Assembly: GCA_900315935.1 (NCBI GenBank)
Contig: ONBB01000017.1
Location: 25,010 to 89,009 of the forward strand
From: an uncultured Bacteroidales bacterium
GTDB lineage: Bacteria > Bacteroidota > Bacteroidia > Bacteroidales > P3
Reading direction: 5' to 3'
DNA: 64,000 nucleotides
The translations under genes were made by a program, and so were the position numbers. A model generated the notes under the pieces. That model had not been told where the DNA came from and ran no database searches. It saw only the letters and a program-made list of their open reading frames with translations. Shown here piece by piece: positions 11,180-51,324 of the stretch (positions are counted from its first letter, which is position 1; the number at the start of each line of letters is the position of its first letter).

Positions 11180-11816
11180 AGCCGAATCCTGTTTTGTTTA
11201 CAATACGCTGCCCCTCGGCACCCAGTTTCTTGCGCAGGCGGGCGATATGCACGTCGACCGAGCGCTCGCCGACCAGGGTGTCGTCGGGCCATACGGCATC
11301 CAGTATCTCCTCGCGGGAGAAGTAGCGGCCCGGGTGCTCCAAGAACAACTGCAAAATAAGATGTTCGCGACGGGTCAGATTGTTCTGATTATTCAGAATA
11401 TTCGGATTATTCTGAATACCCTGATTATTCTGATTATTCTGGCTTCTGCGGAGGACGGCTTTGACACGGGCCAGGACGGTGTCGAAGGAGAAGGGCTTGG
11501 CGATGTAGTCGTCGGCGCCGGCGTCGAAACCCTGCAGCTGGTCGTCGTGGCCGCCCAGGGCGGTGAGGAAAATGACGGGGGTCTGGTCGCCGCTCTCGCG
11601 AAGCCGGCGCGCCAGGTCGAAGCCCGACATGCCGCCCATCATCACATCGAGCAGCAGCAAGTCATAACCATCCACTCCACGCTTTCCACCTTCCACCTTC
11701 TCCAGCGCCTCCTCGGCGCTGGCGGCGGTGTCCACCTCGTAGTCCTCGGCCTCAAGGTTGAAGCGGAGTATCTCGCAGAGGTCCTGCTCGTCGTCTACTA
11801 CCAGTATGCGGGGCAT
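11166..11816 (-). CDS. OmpR/PhoB-type response regulator with repeat-filled linker
   Basis: 216 aa. Receiver domain with the acidic pair D8-D9, phospho-acceptor D57 in YDLLLLDVMM, and the conserved Thr and Lys (VIFLTALG, DDYIAKPFS). The C-terminal winged helix begins at LTRREHLILQLFLEHPG and includes DVHIARLRKKLG. Two places are odd. The linker at about residues 125-146 is almost entirely Asn/Gln/Ile, encoded by 9-nt CAGAATAAT-like tandem units. A short VEGGKRGVDG insert just before the phosphorylation strand is encoded by a TTCCACC-like array. Both look like DNA repeats inserted in frame. The gene is followed by its kinase with overlap. Confidence 0.92.
   Translation of the reverse strand: MPRILVVDDEQDLCEILRFNLEAEDYEVDTAASAEEALEKVEGGKRGVDGYDLLLLDVMMGGMSGFDLARRLRESGDQTPVIFLTALGGHDDQLQGFDAGADDYIAKPFSFDTVLARVKAVLRRSQNNQNNQGIQNNPNILNNQNNLTRREHLILQLFLEHPGRYFSREEILDAVWPDDTLVGERSVDVHIARLRKKLGAEGQRIVNKTGFGYGLV
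11380..11441. repeat. 9-nt tandem repeat inside the response regulator gene
   Basis: Minus strand units of CAGAATAAT type, about six to seven degenerate copies, encoding the Asn/Gln linker. AT-rich against a GC-rich gene. The same CAGAAnnnT unit is present in the SGNH gene at 37770-37859, read there in another frame. Confidence 0.8.
11671..11703. repeat. 7-nt TTCCACC-like array inside the receiver domain
   Basis: Plus strand reads TCCACTCCACGCTTTCCACC followed by TTCCACCTTC. The unit is related to the TTTCCAC heptamers in the TonB receptor gene but lies in the other orientation relative to the gene. Confidence 0.55.
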
Positions 11817-11823
11817 GGGTAAT

Positions 11824-11861
11824 GTTTATAAGTTGATAAGTTGATAGGTTTATAAGTTTAA
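11824..11861. repeat. 8-nt ATAAGTTG tandem repeat upstream of the response regulator
   Basis: Four units of ATAAGTTG/ATAGGTTT type lie just upstream of the regulator's start codon at 11816, in its promoter or leader region. A change in copy number would alter spacing there. Confidence 0.6.
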
Positions 11862-11904
11862 GGGTAACGGAATGGGGGATTTAATATTGTGTGGGGGCAG
11901 AAAC

Positions 11905-11933
11905 AAAAAGAGGAAGCTGTCTCTTGCTTCCTC
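11905..11933 (-). terminator. Terminator of tRNA-Phe
   Basis: Stem GAGGAAGC (11910-11917) with GCTTCCTC (11926-11933), loop of eight, followed on the minus strand by TTTTTG. It lies immediately 3' of the tRNA. Confidence 0.8.
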
Positions 11934-11938
11934 TTCTG

Positions 11939-12011
11939 TGGCATCGACTGGATTTGAACCAGTGACGCAAGGATTTTCAGTCCTTCGCTCTACCAACTGA
12001 GCTACGACGCC
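11939..12011 (-). tRNA. tRNA-Phe (GAA)
   Basis: Cloverleaf on the minus strand: acceptor GGCGTCG pairing with CGATGCC, discriminator A, D stem GCTC/GAGC, anticodon stem AAGGA/TCCTT around loop CTGAAAA (anticodon GAA), T arm with GGTTCAAATCC. CCA is not encoded. Promoter and terminator flank it closely, so it is a single-gene transcript. Confidence 0.95.
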
Positions 12012-12038
12012 ATCGAAATTCGCGCTTGAATTCGGGTG

Positions 12039-12070
12039 CAAAAGTACGAACATTTTGCAGACTGGCCAAA
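12039..12070 (-). promoter_or_regulatory. Promoter of tRNA-Phe
   Basis: Minus strand TTTG (12070-12067), 20-nt spacer, TACTTTTG (12046-12039), about 28 nt upstream of the mature tRNA 5' end. Confidence 0.8.
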
Positions 12071-12125
12071 TTTTTTTTTGCCCGAAAACCGAAAATGAAA
12101 ACTAAATCCTGATTTTCAACAAGTT

Positions 12126-12773
12126 CTATTCCTCATTTTTTTCACCCTCGGCGGTCTCTTTCTGCTTCGGAGCGAAGAAAAGTTGGTCCACCAGGAGCCA
12201 AATTACACCTATTGTGATGGCGGCGTCGGCGAAGTTGAAGATGGCACTGAAGAACTCGAAATGCTGTCCGCCGACGAAGGGCATCCACTGCGGCCAGTCG
12301 AGCTCGAAGAGGGGGAAGTAGAACATGTCGACCACCTTGCCCTGCAGCAGCGGCGCATAGCCTCCTTCGGGCGGGAAGAGGGTGGCGACGTTGTAGTAGC
12401 TCTCGTTGAATATCACGCCGTAGAAACAGCAGTCGATGAGGTTGCCCACGGCACCGGCGAGGATGAGCGTCAGGCTGTAGACCAGCGAGCGGCGCCCGCC
12501 CTGACAGATATGGCGCAGGATGAACCACACGATGAGGCCCGAGGCGGCGATGCGGAAGAGGGTAAGGACAATCTTGCCCACCTCGCCACCGAAGGCCATA
12601 CCGAAGGCGAAACCCTCGTTCTCGATGAAGTGCAGGCGGCACCAGGAGCCGATCAGCGGTATGTCCTCGCCGATATGCATGTTGGTCTTGACCAATATCT
12701 TGATTATCTGGTCAATCACGAGGATGGCGGCCACAATGATGGCCACGGTATAGGCTTGTTTGCGTTTATTCAT
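12126..12773 (-). CDS. lspA: Lipoprotein signal peptidase (signal peptidase II)
   Basis: 215 aa, four predicted membrane segments, with the family motifs FIENEGFAFGM, AGAVGNLIDCC and FNFADAAIT; the two catalytic aspartates are those in GNLID and FADA. The enzyme cleaves prolipoprotein signal peptides before the lipidated Cys in the inner membrane, and this window encodes several lipoprotein substrates. A loop between the third and fourth segments (YYNVATLFPPEGG ... GQHFEFF) is longer than in E. coli LspA, as is usual in Bacteroidota. The start overlaps the stop of the DUF3109 gene, so the two are co-transcribed on the minus strand. Confidence 0.95.
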   Translation of the reverse strand: MNKRKQAYTVAIIVAAILVIDQIIKILVKTNMHIGEDIPLIGSWCRLHFIENEGFAFGMAFGGEVGKIVLTLFRIAASGLIVWFILRHICQGGRRSLVYSLTLILAGAVGNLIDCCFYGVIFNESYYNVATLFPPEGGYAPLLQGKVVDMFYFPLFELDWPQWMPFVGGQHFEFFSAIFNFADAAITIGVIWLLVDQLFFAPKQKETAEGEKNEE

Positions 12774-13341
12774 GGCGGTTGGATATTTCTTGCAATAACT
12801 CGTCGTACCACTCCTGGCCGAAGCGGCGGACGAGGGGTTCCTTTAAATAGATGTACAGCGGGTCGCCGTGGGCGTGGGCGCAGCGGCAGATGTCCCAGCG
12901 GTGGTAGTTGACGGCGGTGAACTCGCCGTAATCCTCCACACGGATGGGATAGAGGTGGCAACTCACCGGCTTGGGGAATTGAGAATTGGAAATTGAAAAT
13001 TGAAAATTGTTGGCGCGGAAAGCCTTTTCAATGGCGCAGAGGGCCAGGTCGCCGTCGTAGGTGATATAGGCGCAGGCACCGCCGGCGATGAGGGGGGTGC
13101 CGAGGTCGCCGTCCTTGTCGCGCACGGCCACACCCTGCCGTTCCACAGTGGCGATTCCCTCGGCGGTCATGTAGGGCCTCACCTCGGGCAGGATGGCTTC
13201 CAATATGGGTACCTCCTCCTCGAGCAGGGGTGCACCGCTGTCGCCGTCGACGCAGCAGGCGCCGCGGCACTCCGTGCAGTCGCAGCAGAAGCGCTGGTCG
13301 GCCACGTCGTCGGAGACTATACTGTTCTTGACTACTATCAT
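12766..13341 (-). CDS. DUF3109 family cysteine-rich protein
   Basis: 191 aa. Conserved cysteines appear in FCCDCTECRGACCVDGDSG, GGACAYI, LCAIEKAF, VSCHLYP and WDICRCAHAH, the pattern of the DUF3109/YkgJ-like group thought to bind metal or an Fe-S cluster; function is not established. Residues NNFQFSISNSQFPKP near 110-124 are a low-complexity insertion encoded by a CAATTTT heptamer array (12975-13009) between two conserved cysteine motifs. The gene overlaps the dehydrogenase upstream and lspA downstream by four to eight bases, so it belongs to that minus-strand operon. Confidence 0.85.
   Translation of the reverse strand: MIVVKNSIVSDDVADQRFCCDCTECRGACCVDGDSGAPLLEEEVPILEAILPEVRPYMTAEGIATVERQGVAVRDKDGDLGTPLIAGGACAYITYDGDLALCAIEKAFRANNFQFSISNSQFPKPVSCHLYPIRVEDYGEFTAVNYHRWDICRCAHAHGDPLYIYLKEPLVRRFGQEWYDELLQEISNRHE
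12975..13009. repeat. 7-nt CAATTTT tandem repeat inside the DUF3109 gene
   Basis: Minus strand CAATTTT, CAATTTT, CAATTTC, CAATTCT, CAATTCC in a row. The same heptamer array lies in the DUF2723 gene at 45134-45164. Confidence 0.8.
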
Positions 13342-14306
13342 TTCAATGCTTCGATTATTTTGTCCGCCAGTACGGCAGAGAGTTTATAGTGCGACTCGAC
13401 ACTCCAGCCCGCCACATGGGGGGTGAGCACCGTCCGGGGCGACTGCATGAGGTAGCGCATGGACTCCGGCACGTCGCCAAGGGCGTCAGCCTGCATGTTC
13501 TCATATTCCAGCACATCGAGGGCGGCGCCGCGCACCTTGCCGCTTTCCAGGCCGGCGACGAGGGCCTCGGTGTCCACCACCGCACCGCGAGCGGTGTTAA
13601 TCAAGAAAAAGGGCTTGCGCATGGCAGCGATGAAGGCCGCATCGAGGTAATGGCGGGTCTCGTCGGTGAGGGGCACGTGGAAGGAGACCACGTCGGCCTC
13701 CTGCTGGAGGAGCGCCAGCGACTCCAATCTTTCTAGAAATTCTAGTTTTTCTAGAAATTCTAGATTTTCTAGAGATTCTAGATTTTCTAGGTACTTGTCA
13801 TAGTAGACCACGCGGCAGCCAAAGCCCGAAAGCCTTTTGGCGAAGGCGCGGCCCATGTTGCCAAGACCGATGATGCCCACAGTGAGGCTGCCCAGCTCCA
13901 GGCCACGGTTGGCCTCGCGCCGCCAAAGGCCGCGCCGCACCTCGGCATCGGCTCGGGCAATGTTGTTGAGCAGGGCAAGGAGGAGACCCACGGCATGCTC
14001 GCCCACGGCGTCGCGGTTGCCCTCGGGGCTGTTGAGGCAGCGTATGCCACGGCTTTCGGCATAAGCCACGTCGATAGTCTCCATGCCGGCCCCTACCCTG
14101 CCGATGCAGCGGAGCGAAGGACAGGCATCGATGAAGGCGCGGTCGACGATAACCTTGCTGCGCACCACCAAGCCGTCGCACCCCTGGGCGGCACGGAGGA
14201 GAGCCTCGCGGTCGAGGTCGGGCTCAAGAAGAACCTCAAAGCCAGCCTCGCGCAGGCGCTGGGGAAGCACCTCGTGGGTGCGGTCGGTGATAAGGATGCG
14301 GGTCAT
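13338..14306 (-). CDS. D-2-hydroxyacid dehydrogenase, phosphoglycerate dehydrogenase-like
   Basis: 322 aa. NAD-binding Rossmann motif VGIIGLGNMGRAFAKRL, substrate-domain motif VGAGMETIDVAYAESRGI, and the catalytic triad positions INTARGAVVD (Arg), DVLEYE (Glu) and LTPHVAGWS (His). This fits the SerA/hydroxypyruvate reductase superfamily; serC is not adjacent, so phosphoserine synthesis is only one option. After KYLE, the segment at about residues 172-196 consists of LEN/LES/LEF triplets encoded by at least seven CTAGAAnnn units (13723-13791). It replaces the short loop after the Rossmann Asp/Lys and looks like an inserted DNA repeat kept in frame. ATGA overlap with the neighbouring DUF4249 gene. 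Confidence 0.85.
   Translation of the reverse strand: MTRILITDRTHEVLPQRLREAGFEVLLEPDLDREALLRAAQGCDGLVVRSKVIVDRAFIDACPSLRCIGRVGAGMETIDVAYAESRGIRCLNSPEGNRDAVGEHAVGLLLALLNNIARADAEVRRGLWRREANRGLELGSLTVGIIGLGNMGRAFAKRLSGFGCRVVYYDKYLENLESLENLEFLEKLEFLERLESLALLQQEADVVSFHVPLTDETRHYLDAAFIAAMRKPFFLINTARGAVVDTEALVAGLESGKVRGAALDVLEYENMQADALGDVPESMRYLMQSPRTVLTPHVAGWSVESHYKLSAVLADKIIEALK
13723..13791. repeat. 9-nt CTAGAAnnn tandem repeat inside the dehydrogenase gene
   Basis: At least seven consecutive CTAGAA-starting nonamers on the minus strand, strongly AT-rich, encoding LEN/LES/LEF. The same CTAGAAATT-like unit occurs in the DUF6266 gene (50994-51044), where it is read as Ser-Arg-Asn. Confidence 0.85.
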
Positions 14307-15202
14307 TGCGAAACAGGGATTGGGACAAGGATTCGGTTGCGGGCACCAAAGATGCCGATGCCGCCATCGATATTGGTGTGCACCTGCACGGGTTCGGCAA
14401 AAAGATCTTCAAACGAGTCGCCATCCATGCTGGTGGTGAGTTCATAGAGGTAGCGGTCGCGCGAGTAGGAAGTGATTTCCAGCAGGGCCTCCGTATTTCT
14501 GTAGTGCAATTCCGGTGCAATCTCCACCACATGGCTCTGTCCGTTGAAATAGTCGTCGGTGAAATAGAGGACTTTGTCGAACACCTCGCCGGGATTGTCG
14601 CCATCAAGAATCGACCCCACATCCCCGGCACCAGTGAGCATGTAGTCGTTGCACGTGAAGTACCGATAACTATCCTCGCAATGCCGCACACCATCCCACT
14701 CATAGCACTCGCGCTCAATGACACGGACGACATAGAAGTTATCCTCGCCTGCAGGGTCGTTGAGCGTGAAGCGCACGGAGTAGGTACGGTCATTATCTTC
14801 GTTGGCAGTTAAAGTAGCCTGCATGTTGTCCACACTGGCCGGCGAGGGTACGGTGGTGGCAGAGGTTACGGTGCCGTGGTCCGGGACCTGCACCTGCAGG
14901 GCGAGGTGGTCGCCCACGCGGGGACGGTAGTCAAAAACATAGCGTCCATTGGCAGACGGGGTGGCAGTGGCTTCTGTGCTGCCGTTCACCAGGAGGGTTA
15001 CCACGGCGTTATCGATGGTACGGAACGGCTGCGATGAAAGGAAGAAGCGGCTAAACGAGAGGCGCAGCGAGAGGACGCTGTCGGGTTCCACACATGACAT
15101 GACCACCACATTGGGGTCCTGTTGCTCAAAATCTATATCAAGATCCTTGGTGCAGGCACCAAGCAGGAGCGCTATTGCGAATAGGGAAAGATATTTCTTC
15201 AT
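14303..15202 (-). CDS. DUF4249 lipoprotein partner of the TonB receptor
   Basis: 299 aa with signal peptide and lipobox LLLGACTKD. The mature part shows the DUF4249 pattern: PNVVVMSCVEPDSVLSLRLS, a run resembling a plug-like beta domain, NGRYVFDYRPRVGDHLALQV and FTLNDPAGEDNFYVV. DUF4249 proteins are outer-membrane-associated lipoproteins almost always encoded directly after a TonB-dependent receptor, as here (seven bases downstream), and are thought to help it. The transported substrate is unknown. Its stop overlaps the dehydrogenase start. Confidence 0.85.
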   Translation of the reverse strand: MKKYLSLFAIALLLGACTKDLDIDFEQQDPNVVVMSCVEPDSVLSLRLSFSRFFLSSQPFRTIDNAVVTLLVNGSTEATATPSANGRYVFDYRPRVGDHLALQVQVPDHGTVTSATTVPSPASVDNMQATLTANEDNDRTYSVRFTLNDPAGEDNFYVVRVIERECYEWDGVRHCEDSYRYFTCNDYMLTGAGDVGSILDGDNPGEVFDKVLYFTDDYFNGQSHVVEIAPELHYRNTEALLEITSYSRDRYLYELTTSMDGDSFEDLFAEPVQVHTNIDGGIGIFGARNRILVPIPVSQ

Positions 15203-15208
15203 AAGGCA

Positions 15209-17713
15209 CTAGAATTTATATATGTATGAAACCGAAGGTATGATGGGGAAAATCGAAAGCTGCTTGAGCACGGGCGTAGAGCGATAGCCCTCGCCTCCGC
15301 CACCATAAGTCTCCTTGTAGCCAGGATAGACGAAGAAGGGATTTTGGCGGTTGTAGAGGTTGTAGACGCTGATATTCCAGGTGCGCACACCACGCTTCTT
15401 CTGCTTGTGGAAGTTGACGCTGAGGTCCATGCGGTGGTAGGCAGGCATGCGGAAATTGTTGCGCGACTCTATATAGTCATAGGTGCGACCCACCGTCTGC
15501 CCAGGATGCCAGTCGCTCTCTTCCTCACCTTCAAACTGTTGCATGGCCAAGGTGGCGGTGTTGCCAGTGGCGAAGACCCACGTAAGGCCGCAGTCGAAGC
15601 GGTCGCTGGGCTTGTATTGCAAGGTGATGGAGATGTCATGGATGCGGTCGTACTTGGCGGGGAACTCGCGGCCGTCGTTGAGCTGGGGGAAGGTGCGGAG
15701 GGTGCGGCTCAGCGTGTAGCCCACCCAGCCACTGAACTTGCCCACCGTCTTCTGCGCCAGCAGCTCGACACCATAGGCACGGCCGTCGCCGAGGCATACC
15801 TTGTTCTCCCAGCCTGCGCTGGAGCCGAAGAAACTGCTGCCGGGCAGGTACTCCATGAGGTTGTGCATCCACTTGTAGTAGCCCTCCACGGAGAAGTCGA
15901 TACCCCAACGGGTGTAGAACAGCCCGGCGGCCACCTGGTGGCTACCCATCGGCGGGATGCGCTTGGTAACGGGCACCCACAGGTCGGTGGGGAGGCTGAT
16001 ATTGGAGGTGGAGAGGAGGTGGAGGTACTGGGTCATGTAAGCGTAGCCGGCCTTGAGCGAGAGGTCGTCGGTGAGCATGAAGCGGCCACTGAAGCGCGGC
16101 TGCAGCGAGGGATAGAAGGTGCCCTGCACCAGGAAGCCCGCTGCGGCGAGGCCGGCATTAAGCTTGAGGCTTTCGGTGAGGCTCCAGTCGTCCTCGGCAT
16201 AGAGGGTGAACTCCTGGGCGTGCACACGGCTTTCGCCCAGGGTAGTGTCGACAGACTGCATGCCGGTGGCCGACATCTTATAGCCGGCCACCTCGGGACG
16301 GAAGATGTGGTGGGTGGCCACGCCGCCGAAACGGATGTTGTGCTCGGGGCGTGGCGAATAGTCGAAGTCGGCACGCGCCGTGATATCGTGGATACCCGAG
16401 CGGAAGTTCACCTCAGCCTCTTCGTGTTCGCTGATGCCGGAAAAGTTGTTGTCCAACTCCATACCCATCGAGAGGCGGTTGCGGTAGCGGGTGTAGGCGC
16501 CCGTAACATTGAGGAAGAGCTGGGGGGTGAGCTCATAGTTCCAACGGACGGCGGCGGCCAGGTTACCCCAGGCGTAGCGCATTTTGATATACTCGTTGTA
16601 CTTGTAGCCGTCGTAGTTGCTCTCGCGATAGCGGATGCGCGCATAGACGGCATCGTCGCCCGAGTAGAGTGAGGCGTAGAGGCGGCTGCGGTCATTGAAC
16701 TTGTGCGTCAGCTTGGCGTTGAGGTCATAGAAGTAGTAGCCCGCATTGAATCTTTCGGCATCGGCCTCGCTGGCGGCCACAAGCAGAAGCGGCTGGAGGA
16801 GCAGGTCGCCATAGGTGCGGCGCAAGGAGAGGCTCATCGTGGTCTGTTCCTTCACTATCGGACCCTCGATGCTGAACTTGGCGGCAATGGCACCGATGGA
16901 GGCCGAGCCGTGCCACTCGCGGTCGTTGCCGTTGTTGGTGGCGATGTCGAGGACACTGGAGATGCGGCCCGAGAAGCGGGCGGGGAAGGAGCCCTTGTAG
17001 AGCGTTACGTTCTTGATGGCGTCGCTGTTGAAGGCGGAGAAGAAGCCGCCCAGGTGGTTGACGTTGTAGAGAGGTACGCCGTCGAGAAGGAACAGGTTCT
17101 CGTCGGGGCCGCCGCCACGGACATAGATGCCGCTGGTGCCTTCGGTGCCGCTCTGTACACCGGGCAGGAGCTGGATGGCCTTCAGCACGTCGGCCTCGCC
17201 GAAGAGCACAGGCACCAGCTTGATCTGCTCCACCGGCAGCTCTACGGCGCTCATTTGGCTCATGGTGGGGGCGGTAACGCGCTCGGCGGTGATGACCACC
17301 TCGTCGAGGTCGACGGCAGGTTCCAACCTCACGTTGAGGCGGGGATTGGCATTGAGCTCCACGGTGTGGTACTGCGCCTTGTAGCCGATGAAGCTGATGC
17401 GTAGCTGGGCCGAGGCGACGCCGGGGGTGAGCGAGTAGCGGCCGTGGGCGTCGGTAACGGTGCCCTTGCCGGTGGCGGTCTCCAGGACGGTGGCGCCAAT
17501 CAACGTCTCGCCGGTGCGGCTGTCGGTGATGGTGCCGGAGACGGTCTGGGCGTGGAGAGTGGAAAGTGGAAAGTGGAAAGTGGAAAGCAGAAACAGCAGT
17601 AGCCACACACTAGGCACTTTCAAGGCAAATCCTAGGGGTTCCCTAGGGCCGTTCTTCGTCTGTTCTTCGTCTGTTCTTCGTCTGTCCCTCGGTCGGGAGA
17701 CCCCTTCCGCCAT
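15209..17713 (-). CDS. TonB-dependent outer-membrane receptor with carboxypeptidase-like N-domain
   Basis: Roughly 835 aa. After the signal peptide comes a carboxypeptidase-regulatory-like domain (VSGTITDSRTGETLIGATV), then the plug (ELPVEQIKLVPVLFGEADVL, LLPGVQSGTEGTSGIYVRGG, FLLDGVPLYNVNHLGGFFS) and a beta barrel ending in an aromatic strand IIPSVSYIYKF. It imports an unidentified ligand using TonB energy. The start is uncertain: the promoter at 17727-17757 puts transcription at about 17720, so ATG 17713 would be nearly leaderless and adds an Arg-rich tail. TTG at 17623 would give KVPSVWLLLFLL and a normal signal peptide. The signal peptide itself is built from TTTCCAC heptamers. Confidence 0.88.
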   Translation of the reverse strand: MAEGVSRPRDRRRTDEEQTKNGPREPLGFALKVPSVWLLLFLLSTFHFPLSTLHAQTVSGTITDSRTGETLIGATVLETATGKGTVTDAHGRYSLTPGVASAQLRISFIGYKAQYHTVELNANPRLNVRLEPAVDLDEVVITAERVTAPTMSQMSAVELPVEQIKLVPVLFGEADVLKAIQLLPGVQSGTEGTSGIYVRGGGPDENLFLLDGVPLYNVNHLGGFFSAFNSDAIKNVTLYKGSFPARFSGRISSVLDIATNNGNDREWHGSASIGAIAAKFSIEGPIVKEQTTMSLSLRRTYGDLLLQPLLLVAASEADAERFNAGYYFYDLNAKLTHKFNDRSRLYASLYSGDDAVYARIRYRESNYDGYKYNEYIKMRYAWGNLAAAVRWNYELTPQLFLNVTGAYTRYRNRLSMGMELDNNFSGISEHEEAEVNFRSGIHDITARADFDYSPRPEHNIRFGGVATHHIFRPEVAGYKMSATGMQSVDTTLGESRVHAQEFTLYAEDDWSLTESLKLNAGLAAAGFLVQGTFYPSLQPRFSGRFMLTDDLSLKAGYAYMTQYLHLLSTSNISLPTDLWVPVTKRIPPMGSHQVAAGLFYTRWGIDFSVEGYYKWMHNLMEYLPGSSFFGSSAGWENKVCLGDGRAYGVELLAQKTVGKFSGWVGYTLSRTLRTFPQLNDGREFPAKYDRIHDISITLQYKPSDRFDCGLTWVFATGNTATLAMQQFEGEEESDWHPGQTVGRTYDYIESRNNFRMPAYHRMDLSVNFHKQKKRGVRTWNISVYNLYNRQNPFFVYPGYKETYGGGGEGYRSTPVLKQLSIFPIIPSVSYIYKF
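17552..17587. repeat. 7-nt TTTCCAC tandem repeat in the receptor signal peptide
   Basis: Minus strand: four TTTCCAC units and one TCTCCAC, encoding the STFHFPLSTLHA end of the signal peptide. Gain or loss of one unit would shift the frame before the mature protein. Confidence 0.8.
17651..17683. repeat. 11-nt GTTCTTCGTCT tandem repeat, three copies
   Basis: Three identical units in the 5' region of the receptor gene, next to a CTAGGGGTTCC/CTAGGG segment (17631-17648) related to the 11-nt array at 31636-31665. Confidence 0.8.
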
Positions 17714-25799: not shown

Positions 25800-25892
25800 G
25801 AACGGCAGGGGGACGGTAGGGGAATGGTAGGGGAACGGTAGGGGAATACAAAGGCACTGGAAGGATATGGAAGCTTATGGTACCATAAGCTA
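25800..25892. repeat. Dispersed repeat, copy B, ending in a 20-nt palindrome
   Basis: GGGGACGG and GGTAGGGGAA(T/C) 11-nt units, then the tail shared with copies A and D, ending in AGCTTATGGTACCATAAGCT (25872-25891), which abuts the stop codon of the Sel1 gene. More than 60 nt match copy A almost base for base. Confidence 0.8.
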
Positions 25893-26264
25893 TTCGGCTC
25901 CGAAAATTCCCATCAAAGCGTTGGCCGTGTAGACCTTCATGGTGTCCAGTTTTCCCGTGGCAATGGCCTTGCGGAGGTAGGCGCGGGCCTTGGCGAGATC
26001 CTCGGGCACGCCGATGGCGTAGTAGTAGCAGAGACCGAGGCTGTACATGGCGTCGGCATCGCCTTGTTCGGCGGCACGGGTGTACCACTGGACGGCCTGG
26101 ACCGAGTCGACGGCGGTGCCGAGGCCCTTCTCATAACATTGACCCAACTGGTACTGGGCCTGGGCGTCGCCCTGCTCGGCGGCGGCGCGGAAGTCGGCGG
26201 CACTCTGTGCCATGGCAACGGCTCCGGCAAGGAGCAGCAGTGCGAGGGTAAGGATTTTCTTCAT
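25890..26264 (-). CDS. Exported Sel1-repeat protein
   Basis: 124 aa. Signal peptide KKILTLALLLLAGAVAMAQ, then two to three Sel1-type TPR-like repeats: FRAAAEQGDAQAQYQLGQCY, YTRAAEQGDADAMYSLGLCYYYAIG and ARAYLRKAIATGK. These mediate protein contacts in the periplasm; no enzyme function is evident. It lies 20 nt downstream of the response regulator/kinase pair and may share its transcript. Confidence 0.8.
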   Translation of the reverse strand: MKKILTLALLLLAGAVAMAQSAADFRAAAEQGDAQAQYQLGQCYEKGLGTAVDSVQAVQWYTRAAEQGDADAMYSLGLCYYYAIGVPEDLAKARAYLRKAIATGKLDTMKVYTANALMGIFGAE

Positions 26265-31610: not shown

Positions 31611-31680
31611 GGAGGGGACATTCCAGGGGAACGGTAGGGGTTCTCTAGGGGTTCTCTAGGGGAATACATAGGCCATTTCC
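31611..31680. repeat. Dispersed repeat, copy C (variant)
   Basis: GGGGAACGGTAGGGG followed by two or three CTAGGGGTTCT 11-nt units and GGGGAATACATAGGCC. It keeps the unit array and a degenerate tail of copies A and B. The intergenic region 31452-31871 otherwise shows no gene. Confidence 0.6.
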
Positions 31681-31871
31681 CATTATTTCCCATCTTGGGA
31701 AAATTTGGATACTTTTTTCTAGTGGCATAAAATACTCGTATCTTTACACCTGAAAACACAGGGTAAAAGTACAGCCTAAATGAGCGCACACCCCTGGCCA
31801 CCGACCTCTTTCGAGGGTGAATGCGGAATAATATTTCGCACGTGCGCGCTACCATATTGAAAAAATTGTGT

Positions 31872-37608: not shown

Positions 37609-39035
37609 AGCCCGGTCGCATAGCGCTTTTCTTCGCCGCCGTCATCGCCGCATTGGCGGCCGCCTGCGCCCTCTTCCCCCGCGACGGGGTCGAGGTGGCA
37701 GGCCACGAGCTCTACCTCCCGCCCGTCCCTCCCCCCCAACACACTGCCCCAATCACCACCCTCGCCGAGATTTCGGATAATTCAGAAATTTCAGAATATT
37801 CGGAATTTTCAGAAATTTCCGAAAAATCAGAATACTCCGAATTATCAGAATTTTCAGACACCTCCGCATTCCTCTCCGACACCACCGACCTCCGCTTCTG
37901 GCTGCCGGACAGCGCTTTCTTCGACGCGTTCTGGGCGGCTGCCGGGCGGGCACAGGAAGAAGGGCGCATCCTGCGAGTGATGCACTACGGCGACTCGCAA
38001 ATCGAGATGGACCGCATCAGCTGCCGCCTGCGTTCCTACATGCAGCGCACCTTCGGTGGCGGCGGTCCCGGCATGCTGCCCTTCCGCACCATCATACCCA
38101 CCTACGCCGTCCGCCAGTACGCCACCGGCGACCTGACCCACCTCTCCTCCTTCGGCGACAGCACCGTCAGCCGCTCGCCCGGCAACTACGGCCCCATGAT
38201 GCAGTGCTTCCGCCTCGGCGGCAGCGCCAACGTAACCCTCCGCGAGACCCAGAAGAAGGGTGCCGACGACCGCATCAAACGCTTCTCCGACGTGCGCCTG
38301 GTCTACAATAACCGCGGCACCGCCCTCCGCGCCACCCTCACCGACCGCACCACCAAGCAACAATTCGCCCTCGAAGAAGGCAACACGGGCATCGGCAGCC
38401 TCCGCTGGGCGCTCGACTCGGCCTCGTCCAACCTGGCACTCAGCGTCTCCGGCAGCGCCGAACTCTATGCCCTCACCCTCGACAACGGCCCCGGCGTGGC
38501 CGTCGACAACATTCCCATGCGTGGCTGCTCGGGACAGCAGTTCACCCTCGTGCCGCTCGACCGCCTGACGCAGGCTTACGCCCAGCTCGACGTCGGCCTC
38601 ATCATCCTGCAGTTCGGCGGCAACTCCATGCCCTACCTGCGCGACGAGAAGGCCATCTCGAAATACTGCACTTCCATCGGCCGCCAGATTGACCACGTGC
38701 GCCGCGCCTGCCCGCAGGCCAAGGTGCTCTTCATCGGCCCTTCGGACATGAGTACACGCGTCCGCGGCCAGCTGCAGACCTACCCCCAGCTGCCGGCCGT
38801 GGTCGACAGCCTGGCCGCCACCGCCGTCCGCCACGGCGCCGCCTACTGGAGCATTTACCACGCCATGGGCGGACTCAACTCCATGATACAGTGGAAGAAA
38901 GAGGGACTGGCCGGCGAGGACTACATCCACTTCACCACCCGCGGCGCCGAACTCATGGGCGACCGCCTGGCCGAAGCCCTTGCCACCAGCTACCGCCGCT
39001 ACCTCCTCCGCAACCGTTTCGCCGAGGCGCAATAA
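37605..39035 (+). CDS. SGNH/GDSL hydrolase with Ser/Glu-rich repeat linker
   Basis: 476 aa. N-terminal hydrophobic segment (IALFFAAVIAALAAACALF, single anchor or signal), a Pro-rich stretch, then a Ser/Glu low-complexity linker at residues 56-85 encoded by 9-nt TCAGAAnnT units. The catalytic domain shows VMHYGDSQIEMD (block I), LQFGGNSMPYL (block III) and YIHFTTRGAELMGDRL (block V His), which fits SGNH acyl-esterases of the envelope. The substrate is unknown; its lpxD neighbour and the second SGNH protein downstream of the GT4 gene suggest glycan O-acetyl modification. Confidence 0.82.
   Translation: MKPGRIALFFAAVIAALAAACALFPRDGVEVAGHELYLPPVPPPQHTAPITTLAEISDNSEISEYSEFSEISEKSEYSELSEFSDTSAFLSDTTDLRFWLPDSAFFDAFWAAAGRAQEEGRILRVMHYGDSQIEMDRISCRLRSYMQRTFGGGGPGMLPFRTIIPTYAVRQYATGDLTHLSSFGDSTVSRSPGNYGPMMQCFRLGGSANVTLRETQKKGADDRIKRFSDVRLVYNNRGTALRATLTDRTTKQQFALEEGNTGIGSLRWALDSASSNLALSVSGSAELYALTLDNGPGVAVDNIPMRGCSGQQFTLVPLDRLTQAYAQLDVGLIILQFGGNSMPYLRDEKAISKYCTSIGRQIDHVRRACPQAKVLFIGPSDMSTRVRGQLQTYPQLPAVVDSLAATAVRHGAAYWSIYHAMGGLNSMIQWKKEGLAGEDYIHFTTRGAELMGDRLAEALATSYRRYLLRNRFAEAQ
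37770..37859. repeat. 9-nt TCAGAAnnT tandem repeat inside the SGNH gene
   Basis: About ten degenerate nonamers, AT-rich, encoding SE(I/Y/F/K/L). The same CAGAA unit family is in the response regulator at 11380-11441, read in another frame. Confidence 0.85.
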
Positions 39036-39107: not shown

Positions 39108-39295
39108 ACCATAAGCTTCCATATCCTACCAGTGCCCTTGTATTCCCCTACCATTCCCCTACCATTCCCCTACCGTCCCCCTAGAGCCTCATCCCTAAAC
39201 TCCCCCTCTAAGCTAGAGGGGGTGGCCGCCGCCAGGCGGACGGGGGCGTGCGTCCAGGCATCCCGCGTAGGGGCGAATCATCATTCGCCCCCACC
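39108..39295. repeat. Dispersed composite repeat, copy D (inverted relative to A)
   Basis: Tail TACCATAAGCTTCCATATCC, three TTCCCCTACC(A/G) units, a CCCCTCTAAGCTAGAGGGGG hairpin, then GGGGCGAAT-catc-ATTCGCCCC (39269-39290). Relative to its upstream gene it has the same orientation as copies A and B. Confidence 0.8.
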
Positions 39296-44593: not shown

Positions 44594-46227
44594 CGGGATG
44601 GCTGCTGGCCGCCGTGGCCACAGCTGTCTACCTGCTCACCATGAGCCGCACCGTCGACTGGTGGGACTGCGGCGAGTTCATCGCCACCTCGTACCTTCTC
44701 CAAGTGGGGCATCCGCCTGGCGCGCCGCTCTACCAGCTGCTGGCGCGCTGCATGATGATGCTCTCTTTCGGCAATCCCCTGTGGGTGGCTCCGCTCTCCA
44801 ACGCCCTCTCCGCCCTCTGCGGCGGCCTGACCGTCATGGTGCTCTTCCGTACCCTCCGCGAGCTCCGCACTTCCTGCCTGGGTGCCGCCGTCGGCGCCCT
44901 CTGCTACCTCTTCTGCGACACGGTGTGGTTCTCCGCCGTCGAGAGCGAGGTCTACGCCATGGCCATGCTCTTCTGCTCGCTCGACGTGTGGCTCATGCTC
45001 CGCTGGCGTCGCACAGGCAACCTGCGCCTGCTGCTGCTCGTGGCATTGCTGCTCGGCCTGGGTGTATGCGTCCACCTGATGACACTCCTAGTGGTACCAG
45101 CCCTCCTCTGGATATTCTTCCGCAACGCCAAGCTTTCAATTTTCAATTCTCAATTTTCAATTCTCCTCCTGTTCTGCCTCTTCCTCGGTCTCACCCCCTA
45201 CGCCATCGTACCCATCCGCGCGGCAGCCAACCCACCCATCAACCAGATGGGCGACGGTTTTGCCTCCTACATCAAGCGCGATGCCTACGCCAAGGCGCCT
45301 CTCTACCCCCGCCTGTGGCGCGAGCGCGACACGGCAAACTGGCAGCAGTGGGATGTCAGCGACCCCGCCTCGCTGTGGGACAACACCAAGTACTATGCCA
45401 CCTACCAGCTCGGCTACATGTACCTGCGCTATTTCATGTACAACTTCATCGGCCGCGAAAATCTTCGCTCCGGCAATATAGTTCTTCTTATCCTACCATT
45501 TTTGTTAGGACTTTGGGGCATGGTGGCGCAGTGGAAGCGGCGACGGCGCGACTTTGTGGCCATTCTGCTATTGTTCCTCTTCGGCGGCATCATCCTGAAT
45601 TTCTACCTCAACCACCCCTGCTACGAACCGCGTGAGCGCGACTACGCCTACGTGCTCTCCTTCTACGCCTTCGCCCTGTGGATCGGCATCGGTGCCAGCA
45701 GCATCGGCCTTCGCAGGTGGCGCTGGTTGGTGCTGCTCGCACCGGCCACCCTGGCCTTCGGCAACTGGGCCGACCACGACCGCAGCGGCAGCCATGCTGT
45801 CCACGACATCGCCTTTAACCACCTCCAGTCCTGCGCCTCCGACGCCATCCTCATCACCTACGGCGACAACGACACCTTCCCCCTCTGGTACCTCCAGCAG
45901 GTGGAAGGGCACCGCCCCGACATCGAAGTCCACAACATCAACCTCGAGGGCTACCGCAACGTGCTCGGCCTGCTGCGCGACAATGACGGCCGCCGACCCG
46001 TCTACCTCACACAGTACACCTACGATGCCGTGGGCCGCCTCTTCGGCGACGACTTCCACTGCTCCAGCTTCTGCTGGCGCCTGGGCGGCGAGGCAACGGA
46101 AGATTGCCTCGACTCCATTCGCTGGCATATCACATCCACCGAATACCTCGACCCTGTCTCGCGTCGCTTCCTCCAAACATGGGAAACCAACACACGGCAA
46201 TCCGTAAGACTTTTGACGGGGGAGTGA
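44554..46227 (+). CDS. DUF2723 polytopic membrane protein, probable GT-C-type glycosyltransferase
   Basis: 557 aa, about ten membrane helices. The DUF2723 opening MSRTVDWWDCGEFIATSYLLQVGHPPGAPLYQL is complete, with the acidic DWWDCGE turn expected at a GT-C active site. The eukaryotic relative TMEM260 is a protein O-mannosyltransferase, so transfer of a lipid-linked sugar to protein is a fair guess. It is shorter than the 1000-aa members. LSIFNSQFSILLL (about residue 193) is a CAATTTT heptamer insertion (45134-45164) within a membrane helix. It overlaps lptE by 40 nt. Confidence 0.82.
   Translation: MRGHLQQGRRELVAGWLLAAVATAVYLLTMSRTVDWWDCGEFIATSYLLQVGHPPGAPLYQLLARCMMMLSFGNPLWVAPLSNALSALCGGLTVMVLFRTLRELRTSCLGAAVGALCYLFCDTVWFSAVESEVYAMAMLFCSLDVWLMLRWRRTGNLRLLLLVALLLGLGVCVHLMTLLVVPALLWIFFRNAKLSIFNSQFSILLLFCLFLGLTPYAIVPIRAAANPPINQMGDGFASYIKRDAYAKAPLYPRLWRERDTANWQQWDVSDPASLWDNTKYYATYQLGYMYLRYFMYNFIGRENLRSGNIVLLILPFLLGLWGMVAQWKRRRRDFVAILLLFLFGGIILNFYLNHPCYEPRERDYAYVLSFYAFALWIGIGASSIGLRRWRWLVLLAPATLAFGNWADHDRSGSHAVHDIAFNHLQSCASDAILITYGDNDTFPLWYLQQVEGHRPDIEVHNINLEGYRNVLGLLRDNDGRRPVYLTQYTYDAVGRLFGDDFHCSSFCWRLGGEATEDCLDSIRWHITSTEYLDPVSRRFLQTWETNTRQSVRLLTGE
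45134..45164. repeat. 7-nt CAATTTT/CAATTCT tandem repeat inside the DUF2723 gene
   Basis: Four heptamers on the plus strand; the same unit family is in the DUF3109 gene (12975-13009). Confidence 0.8.
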
Positions 46228-47641: not shown

Positions 47642-47741
47642 GTCGGCCAAGCCGATGGCATACCAATATGCGCCTTCATGGAGAGCCCTTTGCGTCTATA
47701 CGAATCATCACCATAGAACCCCCAACAAGCATTATATTATA

Positions 47742-47781: not shown

Positions 47782-47807
47782 AACAATGTAATGTTAGTTT
47801 TTTTTTG

Positions 47808-47815
47808 TATTTTTG
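47808..47815 (+). promoter_or_regulatory. Promoter -7 element of the hipBST-type operon
   Basis: TATTTTTG 25 nt before the ATG of the XRE gene; no good -33, as expected for a regulated promoter. Confidence 0.55.
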
Positions 47816-47839
47816 CAGCCGAAATGATATAATCAAACT

Positions 47840-48043: not shown

Positions 48044-48375
48044 GACAGGCGGAAATATACAGAAAAGGCATCCTGGCAGGCATCCTTACAGAAGATGGAG
48101 GAGAATACCGATTCTGCTATGACGAGGCATATCTCAAAAATGAGGATGCACAACCAGTAAGCCTGACACTTCCTTTGCAGACGGAAGCGTATGTCAGCCC
48201 GGTATTGTTTCCTTTCTTTGACGGACTGATACCGGAGGGCTGGCTGCTTGACGCAGCACTACGCAACACCGATATCAGCATACTCGACCGTATGTCGCTA
48301 TTGCTGCTGTGTTGCAAAGAGTGCATAGGTTCTATAAGTGTTGTATCAATAACCAATAATGGAGGTGATGCATAA
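48040..48375 (+). CDS. HipS-like protein (HipA N-terminal subdomain, stand-alone)
   Basis: 111 aa matching only the N-terminal subdomain of HipA: EIYRKGILAGILTEDGGEYRFCYDEAYL, LTLPLQTEAYVSPVLFPFFDGLIPEGWLLDAALR. In E. coli O127 the same domain, encoded as HipS, is the antitoxin of the split kinase HipT. The reading order HipB-HipS-HipT is the same here. Overlaps: ATGA with hipB, TAATG with the kinase gene. Confidence 0.82.
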   Translation: MRQAEIYRKGILAGILTEDGGEYRFCYDEAYLKNEDAQPVSLTLPLQTEAYVSPVLFPFFDGLIPEGWLLDAALRNTDISILDRMSLLLLCCKECIGSISVVSITNNGGDA

Positions 48376-49310
48376 TGTGTAAGTGCCTGTATTGTTATCA
48401 AGATCTGGAGGAAGGACAGGTTGACTTTCATCCAAATTGTGCAAAAAAGATCTTTGGCACGAAGGAAGCTCCATTGTTGGAATACCGCCACGAAGACCTT
48501 GACCGGCTGGCCGAACAAATTATCCGTGCCCAGACATCGCTGACCGGCGTGCAGCCCAAGCTGTCATTGAACCTCACCAGGCACGACGGCAACAGTCGGC
48601 TGACTATTGTGGGACTTTGGGGCGACTATATCTTCAAGCCACAGACGGAGAGTTACGTACAGCTACCCGAGAACGAGGACTTGACCATGCATCTGGCCGA
48701 AGCTGCAAAAATAAAGGTGGTTCCCCATTCCCTCATACGTCTTGCTGACGGTCGCCTGGGGTATATCACCAAGCGCATCGACCGTACAGAGAATGGCGAG
48801 AAGTTAGACATGGAAGATATGTGCCAGCTTACGCTGCACCCGACGGAATATAAGTACAAAGGATCATACGAGCAGGTTGCCAAAGCCATCGCCATGTATA
48901 GCGACACCCCGAAGCTTGACCTTGCGAACTACATGCAGCAGCTGCTGTTCTGCTTTGTTACAGGGAACAACGACATGCACTTGAAGAATTTCTCGCTTTA
49001 TCGTCCTGCGAAGGAATATCGGTTGACCCCAGCATACGACCTTCTTAACGTGGCCATCGCCAATCCCCATGACAAAGAGGAATTGGCACTTACACTATCT
49101 GGTCGCAAGACAAAACTACAATTAGATGATTTTGTGAACGCTGCAAAGACCATGGGGCTGGAAGAAAACTTGATCTATAACCTCATTGGGAGTTTTCAAA
49201 AGGCCCTTCCCAAATGGCAAATGCTGATACACAACTCCTTCCTGTCCAATGAGATGAAAAAAGAGTATGAAGAGTTAGTAATGTCCAGATTGTATCGTTT
49301 GCAGAATTAG
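48375..49310 (+). CDS. HipT-like Ser/Thr kinase toxin with N-terminal Cys motif
   Basis: 311 aa. HipA kinase core: glycine-rich loop AQTSLTGVQPKLSL, ATP-binding IFKPQ, catalytic loop CFVTGNNDMHLKNFSLY (Asp, His, Asn) and the metal region YRLTPAYDLLNVAI. The N-terminal 30 residues MCKCLYCYQDLEEGQVDFHP with NCAKKIFG form a CxxC-x12-HxxxC pattern, probably zinc binding, which E. coli HipT lacks. In known HipT the loop Ser residues are phosphorylated; here the pattern is TSLT. Substrate of HipT is tryptophanyl-tRNA synthetase in E. coli, not testable here. Terminator follows at 49474-49513. Confidence 0.85.
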   Translation: MCKCLYCYQDLEEGQVDFHPNCAKKIFGTKEAPLLEYRHEDLDRLAEQIIRAQTSLTGVQPKLSLNLTRHDGNSRLTIVGLWGDYIFKPQTESYVQLPENEDLTMHLAEAAKIKVVPHSLIRLADGRLGYITKRIDRTENGEKLDMEDMCQLTLHPTEYKYKGSYEQVAKAIAMYSDTPKLDLANYMQQLLFCFVTGNNDMHLKNFSLYRPAKEYRLTPAYDLLNVAIANPHDKEELALTLSGRKTKLQLDDFVNAAKTMGLEENLIYNLIGSFQKALPKWQMLIHNSFLSNEMKKEYEELVMSRLYRLQN

Positions 49311-49384
49311 GTATTGACGTTTAATTTAAAATGCGTCAAATAGACGAATTGTTCTCCGCATTTTTCGGAGAATAATTATTTTTT

Positions 49385-49422
49385 TTCTCCACACATCCGT
49401 ATTGATGCCTTCTTGGTGGATT
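49385..49422. repeat. Right imperfect direct repeat flanking the HipBST-type cassette
   Basis: Right copy of the 38-nt flank, five mismatches to 47604-47641. The stretch 49311-49384 in front of it is AT-rich and shows no gene. Confidence 0.6.
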
Positions 49423-49473
49423 TTTTGTGCCTTCCTTGTGGGCTCTTTGTGACATATACCAGAATCACCACAA

Positions 49474-49513
49474 AAAGAGGGGAGTAAAGCCTTACTGGTT
49501 TTGCTCCCCTTTT
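49474..49513. terminator. Bidirectional terminator between hipT and fic
   Basis: GAGGGGAG (49477-49484) with CTCCCCTTTT (49504-49513), loop about 19. T tract on both strands, so it can end hipT on plus and fic on minus. Confidence 0.7.
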
Positions 49514-49592
49514 ACCTTCCTTTGTTTTGCCTAGTGCCTTGGTATATGGTGATACCGAGGATCCTTCGGTGATGTCTCGACGGTCTTATTAT

Positions 49593-50510
49593 TTATTTCA
49601 CACTACCCAGCAATGACAACATCGACGTCATTCGCTCTTTGAGGTATTCTGCTACAAGATTAGTCATCGCCTGCGGTGAGCTCGTGGCGGCATAGTCTTC
49701 GAACGCCTCGTAGTATCGCTTGCGGTCGGCGAACTTGACGTTGATGGGCGGGTAGCCGGCCTGCATCAGGTGCATGTTGAGCAACAGGCGTCCCGTGCGG
49801 CCGTTGCCGTCGACAAAGGGATGGATGCCCTCGAAGCGCAAGTGGAACAATGATATACGCTCCACCGGGTGCAACCGAGCCATCACCGTGGAACAGTCGT
49901 TCAGCAGTTCCTCGACCATAGGCTCTATCAGGTACGGTTGCGGAGGGGCGACACTTGCACCCATAATCCTAACCGGCACCCTGCGCCAACGGCCGCGGTC
50001 TTCCGGCCTGTCGGCAAGCACCAGCGAATGGATGGAACATATCTCGTAGGCCGACAGCGGTTTCTGCTCCTTTACAAGCCGCTCTACATACTCGTATGCC
50101 TCCTTGTATCCCACAGCCTCAAGGTGGTCCTTCAACGGCTTGCGGTCTATGGTGATGCCTTGCAGCACAAGCGCCGTCTCCTTCAGGGTCAGCGTGTTGC
50201 CCTCGATGGCAGTGCTTTGGTGCGTGTGCTCGACGATAAACTCTTCACGCAAAGCCTCCACCTCGCCCTGCGAGAGGGGCCGCATTGCAGACAGCCGTTC
50301 CTTGAGTTGGTCCACCTCGGCCAGCAGCGGCGAAACTCCGTGCCTGGCCAGCGAACGCGCGTCGGCAGGCTGCACCGCATGCTCGGGGATGAGGTAAAGA
50401 TTGCCCCTGCGTATCACACCGCTGATTCTTCCCTCGGCGCAGAGCCTGCGCACACGCCTGTCGCTGATGCCCCATTTGGCGGCGACCTCGCTCACCTTCA
50501 GATATGCCAT
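49593..50510 (-). CDS. Class II Fic protein with N-terminal HTH-like domain
   Basis: 305 aa from ATG 50510. Residues 1-60 form a MerR/excisionase-like helix-turn-helix (LKVSEVAAKWGISDRRVRRLC). Fic core: catalytic motif GIHPFVDGNGRTGRLLLNMHLM near residue 210 with all key residues, and the inhibitory motif STAIEGN before it, the class II arrangement in which the inhibitor is in the same chain. Activity is likely AMP transfer to a protein, switched by the inhibitory helix. The HTH suggests self-control; the repeats around the start (50514-50582) are candidate operators. Confidence 0.88.
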   Translation of the reverse strand: MAYLKVSEVAAKWGISDRRVRRLCAEGRISGVIRRGNLYLIPEHAVQPADARSLARHGVSPLLAEVDQLKERLSAMRPLSQGEVEALREEFIVEHTHQSTAIEGNTLTLKETALVLQGITIDRKPLKDHLEAVGYKEAYEYVERLVKEQKPLSAYEICSIHSLVLADRPEDRGRWRRVPVRIMGASVAPPQPYLIEPMVEELLNDCSTVMARLHPVERISLFHLRFEGIHPFVDGNGRTGRLLLNMHLMQAGYPPINVKFADRKRYYEAFEDYAATSSPQAMTNLVAEYLKERMTSMLSLLGSVK

Positions 50511-50513
50511 ATT

Positions 50514-50582
50514 GTTCCGATTTTTGCCCGTATAACGCAAAATTCCCGGTTATATTGTTCCGACTTTACCCGAAATCGGAAC
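50514..50582 (-). promoter_or_regulatory. Candidate operator of fic: GTTCCGA repeats
   Basis: GTTCCGA at 50514-50520 (reaching almost to the fic start codon) and at 50557-50563, the latter facing an inverted copy TCGGAAC at 50576-50582. Extended match on the minus strand is CGGGnAAAnTCGGAACAATA in two direct copies. Likely binding sites for the Fic N-terminal HTH. Confidence 0.5.
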
Positions 50583-51324
50583 AAAAGGCCCACCTTCCGG
50601 CTGTGAGTTCGGGCGGGGCGGGGGCTGTGGTGTGGGATGGGGTGGGAAGTGGAGTGGCGGAAAGTTCGGCGGCCGGCTGTGCCATCGCTGTGCCGTAGAC
50701 GGTGGCGGAGACGTTGCCCTGGCCGCTGGCGGCGAAGGCCCAGAGGTGCAGCTCGCCGCCGGCAAACTCTTCGGGTAGAAGGAGTTGCACAGCCCTGCGT
50801 CCGCGTTCCGCCACGGCCGTGAGGCCGCGGCCCGCCGCGGGGCTGTATATATAAATATGTATGTCGTCCGCGAGGCCACCCCCGTCGGCGACCCAGCGCA
50901 CAGCGAGCACACCGCGCTCGTCCACAGCGTATTGCAAGCCTTTGGGCACCGCCAGGGTGCCCTGCGAGAACTGCAGGCTGGGATAGTCAATGGCTCTAGA
51001 ATTTCTAGATTCTCTAGAATTTCTAGTATTTCTAGATCCTCTAGGAAAACACTCCTTGTTGATTTTCAGGAAGGCGTTGCCTTCGGTAATCTGCCAGTCG
51101 GCGGCCAACCTCCGCAGCCCCACGCGCAGCACGGGCGTGGCAGGCGAGGCGAACTGTATCATCGCTTTGAAGCGGCTGCGCTGTTGCAGCTGGGCCTCTG
51201 ATTTGCGGTCCTTTATATGCGGCTGGTAGGCACGCACGAACCAGGCCCCGCGGCGGTGGTACCCCACCACGGTGCCCACGCGGCCACTGAAGCCGCCCAG
51301 TATGCCCATATCCAACTTCGCCAT
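50566..51324 (-). CDS. DUF6266 family protein
   Basis: 252 aa. N-terminus MGILGGFSGRVGTVVGYHRRGAWFVRAYQP is the DUF6266 signature; the family is Bacteroidota-specific and uncharacterised. The middle contains SRNTRNSRESRNSRAID, encoded by a CTAGAAATT nonamer array (50994-51044). The C-terminus is Pro/Ala-rich and its last codons overlap the fic operator region. It has no signal peptide. Confidence 0.8.
   Translation of the reverse strand: MAKLDMGILGGFSGRVGTVVGYHRRGAWFVRAYQPHIKDRKSEAQLQQRSRFKAMIQFASPATPVLRVGLRRLAADWQITEGNAFLKINKECFPRGSRNTRNSRESRNSRAIDYPSLQFSQGTLAVPKGLQYAVDERGVLAVRWVADGGGLADDIHIYIYSPAAGRGLTAVAERGRRAVQLLLPEEFAGGELHLWAFAASGQGNVSATVYGTAMAQPAAELSATPLPTPSHTTAPAPPELTAGRWAFCSDFG
50994..51044. 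repeat. 9-nt CTAGAAATT tandem repeat inside the DUF6266 gene
   Basis: Five units on the minus strand, read as SRN/TRN/SRE, while the identical unit in the dehydrogenase (13723-13791) is read as LEN/LEF. Confidence 0.85.

Follow-up and report, generated by a model that had tools for sequence, protein, structure and literature searches.

The short tandemly repeated repetitive (STRR) heptanucleotides of heterocystous cyanobacteria occur at many loci as short arrays of several families, with uniform 7-bp units that are mostly intergenic, and the Rickettsia palindromic elements are longer single pieces of palindromic DNA that have inserted in frame into ordinary genes. Here we describe arrays of short phased sites in a 64,000-nucleotide stretch of an uncultured Bacteroidales bacterium (assembly GCA_900315935.1, contig ONBB01000017.1, positions 25,010 to 89,009; this whole stretch is called the window) and in the 2.29-Mb genome of 31 contigs (G000) to which it belongs. 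They consist of palindromic cores, CTAG or TCNGA, repeated every 9 bp with free spacers, and of heptamer arrays, and the CTAG core is conserved between species while its spacers diverge at the rate of the flanking DNA. Arrays of the heptamer TAACTGA occur in marine Beggiatoaceae, Cyanobacteria and five Bacteroidetes, patchily across phyla, and in one genome most of them lie immediately before start codons (PMC4679880). Long simple sequence repeats have units of 5-11 nt, most commonly heptanucleotides, and slippage has been proposed as their cause (Mrazek et al. 2007, as cited in PMC4679880). The nearest known readers of a grammar of this sort are the ribbon-helix-helix (RHH) repressors and partition proteins (PMC3325190, PMC9499535 and PMC5016525, in the parts cited); Arc and CopG complexes have a 5-nt sequence between half-sites (PMC3325190), and Omega binds 7-10 consecutive 7-bp repeats and requires no fewer than four of them (PMC9499535).

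Core conservation was followed in 757,529 bp of G000, made up of the window and long stretches of contigs C8, C29, C17, C14 and C20; the five contigs were already known to bear arrays, so their choice was not blind, and the stretches themselves were not placed on arrays. A larger set of 854 kb adds 97 kb of stretches picked around arrays. Runs of four cores at 9-bp spacing numbered 17 for CTAG and 10 for TCNGA in the 757-kb sample, and the reversed cores GATC and AGNCT at the same spacing gave none. TCNGA at 8 or 10 bp gave no four-core run in this sample either, and one run at 8 bp was seen in genome G070. CTAG was altered in one of 88 aligned units, with variable positions on either side of it, in arrays that occupy two reading frames as well as DNA outside called genes. 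In runs with two intact cores to either side of the one scored, a choice made so as not to select for what is measured, that middle CTAG core was intact in 88 cases and broken in 1 in G000, and intact in 44 and broken in 1 in relatives. Per-site divergence in G000 was 0.003 in the CTAG core versus 0.348 in the neighbouring spacers.

Orthologous arrays were compared in 21 alignments among G000, G001 and G004, each with an unbroken run in the query and no fewer than three CTAG in the other genome. Core sites differed at 10 of 502 positions (2.0%), spacers at 79 of 526 (15.0%) and flanks at 1986 of 13128 (15.1%), the contrast of core and spacer having a Fisher probability of 5e-15; two alignments to a single locus, L285, contribute seven of the ten core differences. 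At two loci, three more alignments show the array replaced (16 of 50 core sites differing). The number of units in CTAG arrays changes between species by whole steps of 9 or 18 bp, which preserves the frame.

The reading frames point the same way. Fourteen CTAG arrays lie in called genes of the 854-kb set (a count that leaves out two arrays classed as 'inter', L066 and L070); two are in the CTA-GNN frame, read L-E-x, 12 are in the NCT-AGN frame, read S/T-R/S-x, and none is in the frame that exposes TAG. The ten TCNGA arrays divide equally between S-E-x and an N-Q-N type, and their middle base is free at the wobble position and also at the second codon position, where it changes Q to P or L. 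These splits bear out the proposal of the initial annotation that the same DNA is translated in different frames and that conservation acts at the DNA level. As the CTAG core is kept in two frames and between genes, the constraint is on nucleic acid, and this looks like frame-independent selection on DNA inside protein-coding sequence at many loci of one genus.

In the window, the initial annotation had listed eight tandem stretches in seven genes. Tandem Repeats Finder (TRF) called seven of these, with the sequences given there and within about 10 bases of the ends (11378-11441, 12977-13009, 13731-13790, 17552-17587, 37770-37858, 45134-45165 and 50994-51044); the eighth, an inverted TTTCCAC repeat, proved weak and was not called. 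The carrier genes were confirmed as a response regulator, DUF3109, a 2-hydroxyacid dehydrogenase, a TonB-dependent receptor, a GDSL/SGNH protein, a TMEM260-like (DUF2723) protein and DUF6266. The features are:

11375..11441, minus strand: TCNGA-every-9-bp array in the response regulator linker (Response_reg / Trans_reg_C), read Q/P/L-N-N/I
11671..11703, minus strand: weak TTTCCAC/CTTCCAC stretch in the response regulator, 2-3 imperfect units, the one without a TRF call
11824..11860, no strand assigned: 8-bp array (GTTTATAA) ending 7 bp upstream of the response regulator start codon
12975..13009, minus strand: heptamer array of the CAATTTT family (AATT every 7 bp) in DUF3109, called by TRF
13733..13790, minus strand: CTAG-N5 array in the 2-hydroxyacid dehydrogenase, 7 cores, read L-E-x
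17552..17587, minus strand: heptamer array (TTTCCAC) close to the N-terminus of the TonB-dependent receptor, called by TRF
37773..37858, plus strand: TCNGA-every-9-bp array in the GDSL/SGNH protein, 10 cores, read S-E-x
45134..45165, plus strand: heptamer array (CAATTTT/CAATTCT) in the DUF2723/TMEM260-like protein, called by TRF
50996..51044, minus strand: CTAG-N5 array in DUF6266, 6 cores, read S/T-R-x

The response regulator array has five perfect cores at 11375-11415 and is degenerate past 11415. The 9-base arrays had been described as one repeated unit; they are instead phased palindromic cores with free spacers, and TCAGAAnnT and CAGAATAAT belong to one family, TCNGA every 9 bp, in two frames.

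When the whole of G000 was searched for TTCTAGANN repeated three times, with a tolerance of two mismatches, it gave 94+108 matches and the reversed pattern 1+3, these being overlapping matches and not separate arrays; the arrays are genome-wide and beyond chance. In the 757-kb sample, TRF rows merged by our own rule yielded 338 arrays; the unit is 7 bp long in 64 of them, 9 bp in 48 and 11 bp in 61. The 11-bp arrays were set aside, most of them belonging to an intergenic element described below. Of the 64 period-7 arrays, 54 are made of one of eight heptamers (AAAATTG, AAAATTC, AACTCTT, AACTCAT, AAACCTT, ACTCCTC, AATGAGG and AAAGTGG), and most of the AT-rich nonamers contain CTAG or TCNGA. Heptamer runs with AATT every 7 bp number 11 and those with TTAA 8, and ATAT and TATA gave none at this spacing. 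By a simple hexamer gene caller, 35 of the 64 period-7 and 32 of the 48 period-9 arrays are genic, the latter including ordinary GC-rich coding repeats. Extrapolated from the 17 CTAG arrays in 757 kb, a genome would hold about fifty, dispersed and mostly within genes.

Across genomes, four-core CTAG runs occur in 57 of the 99 genomes of the genus, with 0 to 251 matches per strand, and the reversed control in none of the 99. They occur in 11 of 295 genomes order-wide, with several free-spacer loci in each of three other lineages of the order (G309, G343 and G287) and two loci in G209, and in 2 of 296 phylum-wide, G000 being counted in all three sets. Outside the arrays CTAG is avoided in G000 (observed/expected ratio 0.31 with arrays masked), and it is likewise avoided in the relatives examined. 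In G009 (L192, L193), which has no CTAG arrays, the ratio is 0.02 in 40 kb versus 0.19-0.33 in eleven relatives, which suggests that some lineages are under strong pressure directed at CTAG.

Five of the window genes were compared with their orthologues (regulator, DUF3109, dehydrogenase, SGNH and DUF2723); the array is missing from many orthologues, and in all five genes it sits in a variable loop or linker, in agreement with the initial annotation. The dehydrogenase CTAG array has orthologous counterparts of 5 cores in G001 and 7 cores in G004, and some other species have CCTTAAGG- or TATA-type 9-mers at its site. The regulator linker holds TCNGA in G000, a TCNGA-like array in G004, CTAG in G001 and, in certain other species, CTAG-type 9-mers or a heptamer. 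The DUF3109 heptamer is common to L071 (G001), L072 (G004) and L073, and in most of the other orthologues shown the loop is shorter and lacks it. Among 24 SGNH loci the linker array is found in G000 only, the 23 others having none. The DUF2723 loop, also compared at 24 loci, has CAATTTT heptamers in G000, degenerate ones in G001 and G004, another heptamer in G024, a GGAGTG-rich stretch in G036, CTAG 9-mers in G012, TAAGG 9-mers in G022 (partly in G009), or no evident array. Between rpmI and rplT (30 loci, with a readable rpmI in 24 and the rplT start as well in 23 of these), G000 has a CTAG array of about 54 bp directly after the rpmI stop, G024, G029, G047 and others have none, and G001 has an AATT-N3 array in the leader instead. 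The sister pair G021 and G027, whose main alignments are about 91-94% identical, shows few array gains. A single loop that holds different families in different species is a natural experiment.

The explanation we prefer, tentatively and at somewhat less than an even chance, is that these are phased arrays of palindromic cores in which selection on nucleic acid maintains the CTAG core and a symmetric DNA-binding factor reads it. The genome hosts families of arrays, some with CTAG or TCNGA cores at an exact 9-bp register and others with heptamers, many of which carry AATT or TTAA every 7 bp. Arrays would be gained, lost and swapped where insertion does little harm, that is, in variable protein linkers and directly after the stop codon between co-transcribed genes. 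Once there, the CTAG core would be kept by selection while the spacers drift at the flank rate, and a dimeric factor may sit side by side on neighbouring cores, in the manner of RHH repressors and partition proteins on their repeats. A symmetric core, a free spacer, a fixed register and independence of frame are the trace expected of tandem dimer binding. The distribution, the register, the independence of frame, the contrast between core and spacer and the presence of different families at one site are observed; we infer that the conservation of the core reflects selection and that the reader is a symmetric, dimeric factor on adjacent cores. A broader proposal, which we consider doubtful, is that hundreds of CTAG (or TCNGA) sites at the 9-bp register, in the tolerated stretches of operons, make up a hitherto undescribed genome-wide DNA code kept for cooperative binding of a fast-evolving chromosomal factor with a role in the nucleoid, segregation or self-marking, lineages differing in the palindromic core used at the same gene positions. 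The arrays may be a source of the odd low-complexity linkers (SRN, LEN, SEY, QNN, FNFQFS) in predicted proteins of such genomes, and they raise the question of what reads CTAG every nine bases.

Several points weigh against selection by a reader. The windows of the middle-core test overlap, and middle cores with more than two mismatches are not scored as broken; the orthologue test is conditioned on intact query runs, reuses loci and includes DUF6266 paralogues. TCNGA cores are looser, with 28 intact and 6 broken in all the sequence sampled, and non-palindromic heptamers such as TTTCCAC and ACTCCTC are common. Leucine in the arrays is encoded by CTA, which makes up 2.6% of leucine codons genome-wide, but this follows from the construction of the search and is not independent evidence. 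The reversed control, GATC every 9 bp, matches 7 of 295 genomes order-wide and 28 of 296 phylum-wide, mostly in one family, versus 2 for CTAG, so the reversed core is the commoner one beyond this group and some 9-bp phased palindromes arise in other ways. Within the genus, array number rises with the frequency of CTAG elsewhere in the genome, measured as SSCTAGSS per Mb outside the arrays (Spearman 0.50, P 1e-7, uncorrected for relatedness; -0.02 for the GATC control), a correlation equally expected if mutation or restriction were the cause. No protein that reads the arrays was found. A search with the CopG-type RHH_1 (PF01402, E <= 0.001), a 39-position model of limited reach and the one RHH family covered, which was positive in 8 of 14 control genomes, matched 3 of the 99 genomes, all three without CTAG arrays, and did not match G000. 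RHH_1 proteins were therefore rejected as the reader, having no match in any array-bearing genome, and since they occur only in array-free genomes the arrays were not filed as an RHH system.

As an observation apart, genomes of family f136 (e.g. G541, G549, G444), which lies outside the class, carry GATC every 9 bp, with 1 to 26 matches in 21 genomes; this may be a further phased core, or else a single repetitive gene family.

The main rival, possible though on balance unlikely, is that the arrays are neutral, self-perpetuating repeats with no host function and no reader, in which short palindromes favour slippage or template switching, copying goes on for those units whose core is intact, and arrays survive only where they are harmless. 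Unit-number shifts in whole units, the presence of unrelated families in one loop in different species and the likeness to described short tandem repeats all agree with it, as does folding, since each of the 17 CTAG arrays folds better than its dinucleotide-shuffled versions (mean z -3.6). The corresponding mean z is -2.2 for TCNGA arrays (positive in 1 of 10) and -0.1 for AATT heptamers. With the cores kept, shuffling the order of spacers or their columns left folding unchanged (mean z 0.05 and 0.01, 45 arrays), whereas shuffling letters within each spacer weakened it (z -1.49), a result in keeping with A/T bases that lengthen the palindrome of the core. Folding is thus a by-product of the core, and structure as the selected property was rejected because spacer-order and column shuffles had no effect. 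In a look by eye at a few arrays, with no scripted count, adjacent spacers were not seen to be reverse complements, as self-templated copying would make them. Neutral repeats account for the birth of arrays and for changes in unit number, but not for orthologous cores kept amid drifting spacers: the spacers diverge like the flanks while CTAG stays, so the cores are kept without turnover of units.

A second alternative, which we regard as distinctly improbable, is an RNA element: an RNA-binding protein would bind, or an RNase cut, the mRNA at CUAG or UCNGA sites spaced 9 nt apart. This would explain the placement inside operons. All 17 CTAG arrays in the 757-kb sample lie within genes or co-directional gaps: 10 are in called genes, 2 turned out to be in DUF6266-like frames that the gene caller had missed and scored as intergenic, and 5 are in co-directional gaps, of which those shorter than 150 bp total 10,187 bp. 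Likewise, 23 of 28 non-genic period-7 arrays (one of 29 was dropped, having a neighbour on a single side) lie between co-directional genes, and in 16 of the 23 the array starts between 20 nt ahead of the upstream gene's end and 11 nt beyond it. The view of the initial annotation that the arrays are embedded in genes has thus to be widened, as many also lie in such gaps. Co-directional gaps hold 66% of intergenic bases, however, which makes 23 of 28 by itself a weak excess, and the absence of CTAG arrays from other intergenic DNA is not significant because only about 2 of 17 would be expected there by length. The palindromic cores suggest double-stranded DNA, and no RNA structure is seen at the level of the spacers.

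Selection at the protein level for soluble low-complexity linkers, built by reusing cheap DNA repeats, seems to us still less probable. The coding arrays compared with orthologues do sit in variable linkers, and several of their peptides are hydrophilic. One S/T-rich linker, at C29:184945 in G000 and L298 in G004, has CCAG in most units of the former and CTAG in all units of the latter, a difference that by our reading falls at wobble positions, and the peptide is similar. Against this, one core gives different peptides in its two frames, the same array grammar recurs in intercistronic DNA, and the DUF2723 loop peptides are mutually unlike. Chance, or an artefact of composition or assembly, has next to no chance of being the answer: the assemblies are draft and metagenome-derived and the stretches are AT-rich in a GC-rich genome, but within the genus this is refuted by the reversed controls (0 of 99 genomes, and 1+3 versus 94+108 matches in G000) and by orthologous arrays in separately assembled genomes.

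Other repetitive elements accompany the arrays. A separate intergenic element is found in the window near 9885-9975, 25800-25900, 31632-31700, 39141-39180 and 60663-60704; it has 3-4 copies of GGTAGGGGAAC/T, typically followed by TACAAAGGCACT and two 10-bp units, GGAAGGATAT/GGAAGCTTAT, and about 44 of 47 clusters in 757 kb are this GGTAGGGGAAC-type element or variants of it. An element with GCGAATTATGCGAATT units and inverted ends lies at 51349-51373 and also at C29:72087, C29:182597 and C17:17896 in G000. It adjoins DUF6266 sequences in the window and on C17. DUF6266 is multi-copy with CTAG arrays at one site, C17 having two more DUF6266-like frames with arrays of 10 and 9 cores there, and the GCGAATTATGCGAATT element and DUF6266 are possibly a dispersed module. 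TRF also called a tandem duplication at 4157-4546 (213-bp unit, 1.8 copies) within a long open frame. The nearest named matches of the window DUF3109 are the uncultured Bacteroidetes metagenome-assembled genomes RUG10805 (89%) and RUG13023 (87%), followed by Bacteroidales records, several of them from ruminants.

Tandem units of 5-11 bp recur here at many loci, as in STRR sequences and long simple sequence repeats. Like the STRR sequences, the arrays fall into several short families at many loci, but they include 9-bp free-spacer core arrays and lie in frame in genes and in operon gaps. With the Rickettsia palindromic elements they share palindromic DNA placed in frame, here as phased arrays and not as longer single elements. 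Short sites stand side by side at a fixed register of 7-11 bp, as in the operators of the RHH proteins Arc, CopG and Omega, which have few regulatory or centromere sites in place of the roughly fifty dispersed arrays, mostly in genes, of a genome without an RHH_1 match. No description of free-spacer core (CTAG-N5) arrays was found in the open-access literature, subscription papers and preprints being outside the scope of the search. The unit length class is that of the long simple sequence repeats (Mrazek et al. 2007, as cited in PMC4679880), but here a core is conserved and the spacer is not. Units within an array are not uniform in the CTAG class and are roughly uniform, by TRF percent matches, in several heptamer families. 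The statement in the initial annotation that no such family is described in Bacteroidota was too strong, given the TAACTGA arrays in five Bacteroidetes, which have a different unit (PMC4679880); TAACTGA is absent from the period-7 units listed for 757 kb of G000. Those arrays are likewise interspersed and patchy across phyla, but they repeat one exact unit, related heptamers being rarely repeated, and the cited part of that paper describes no free-spacer core arrays (PMC4679880). The heptamers of G000 are thus of the known interspersed-heptamer kind, with other units and frequent in-frame placement.

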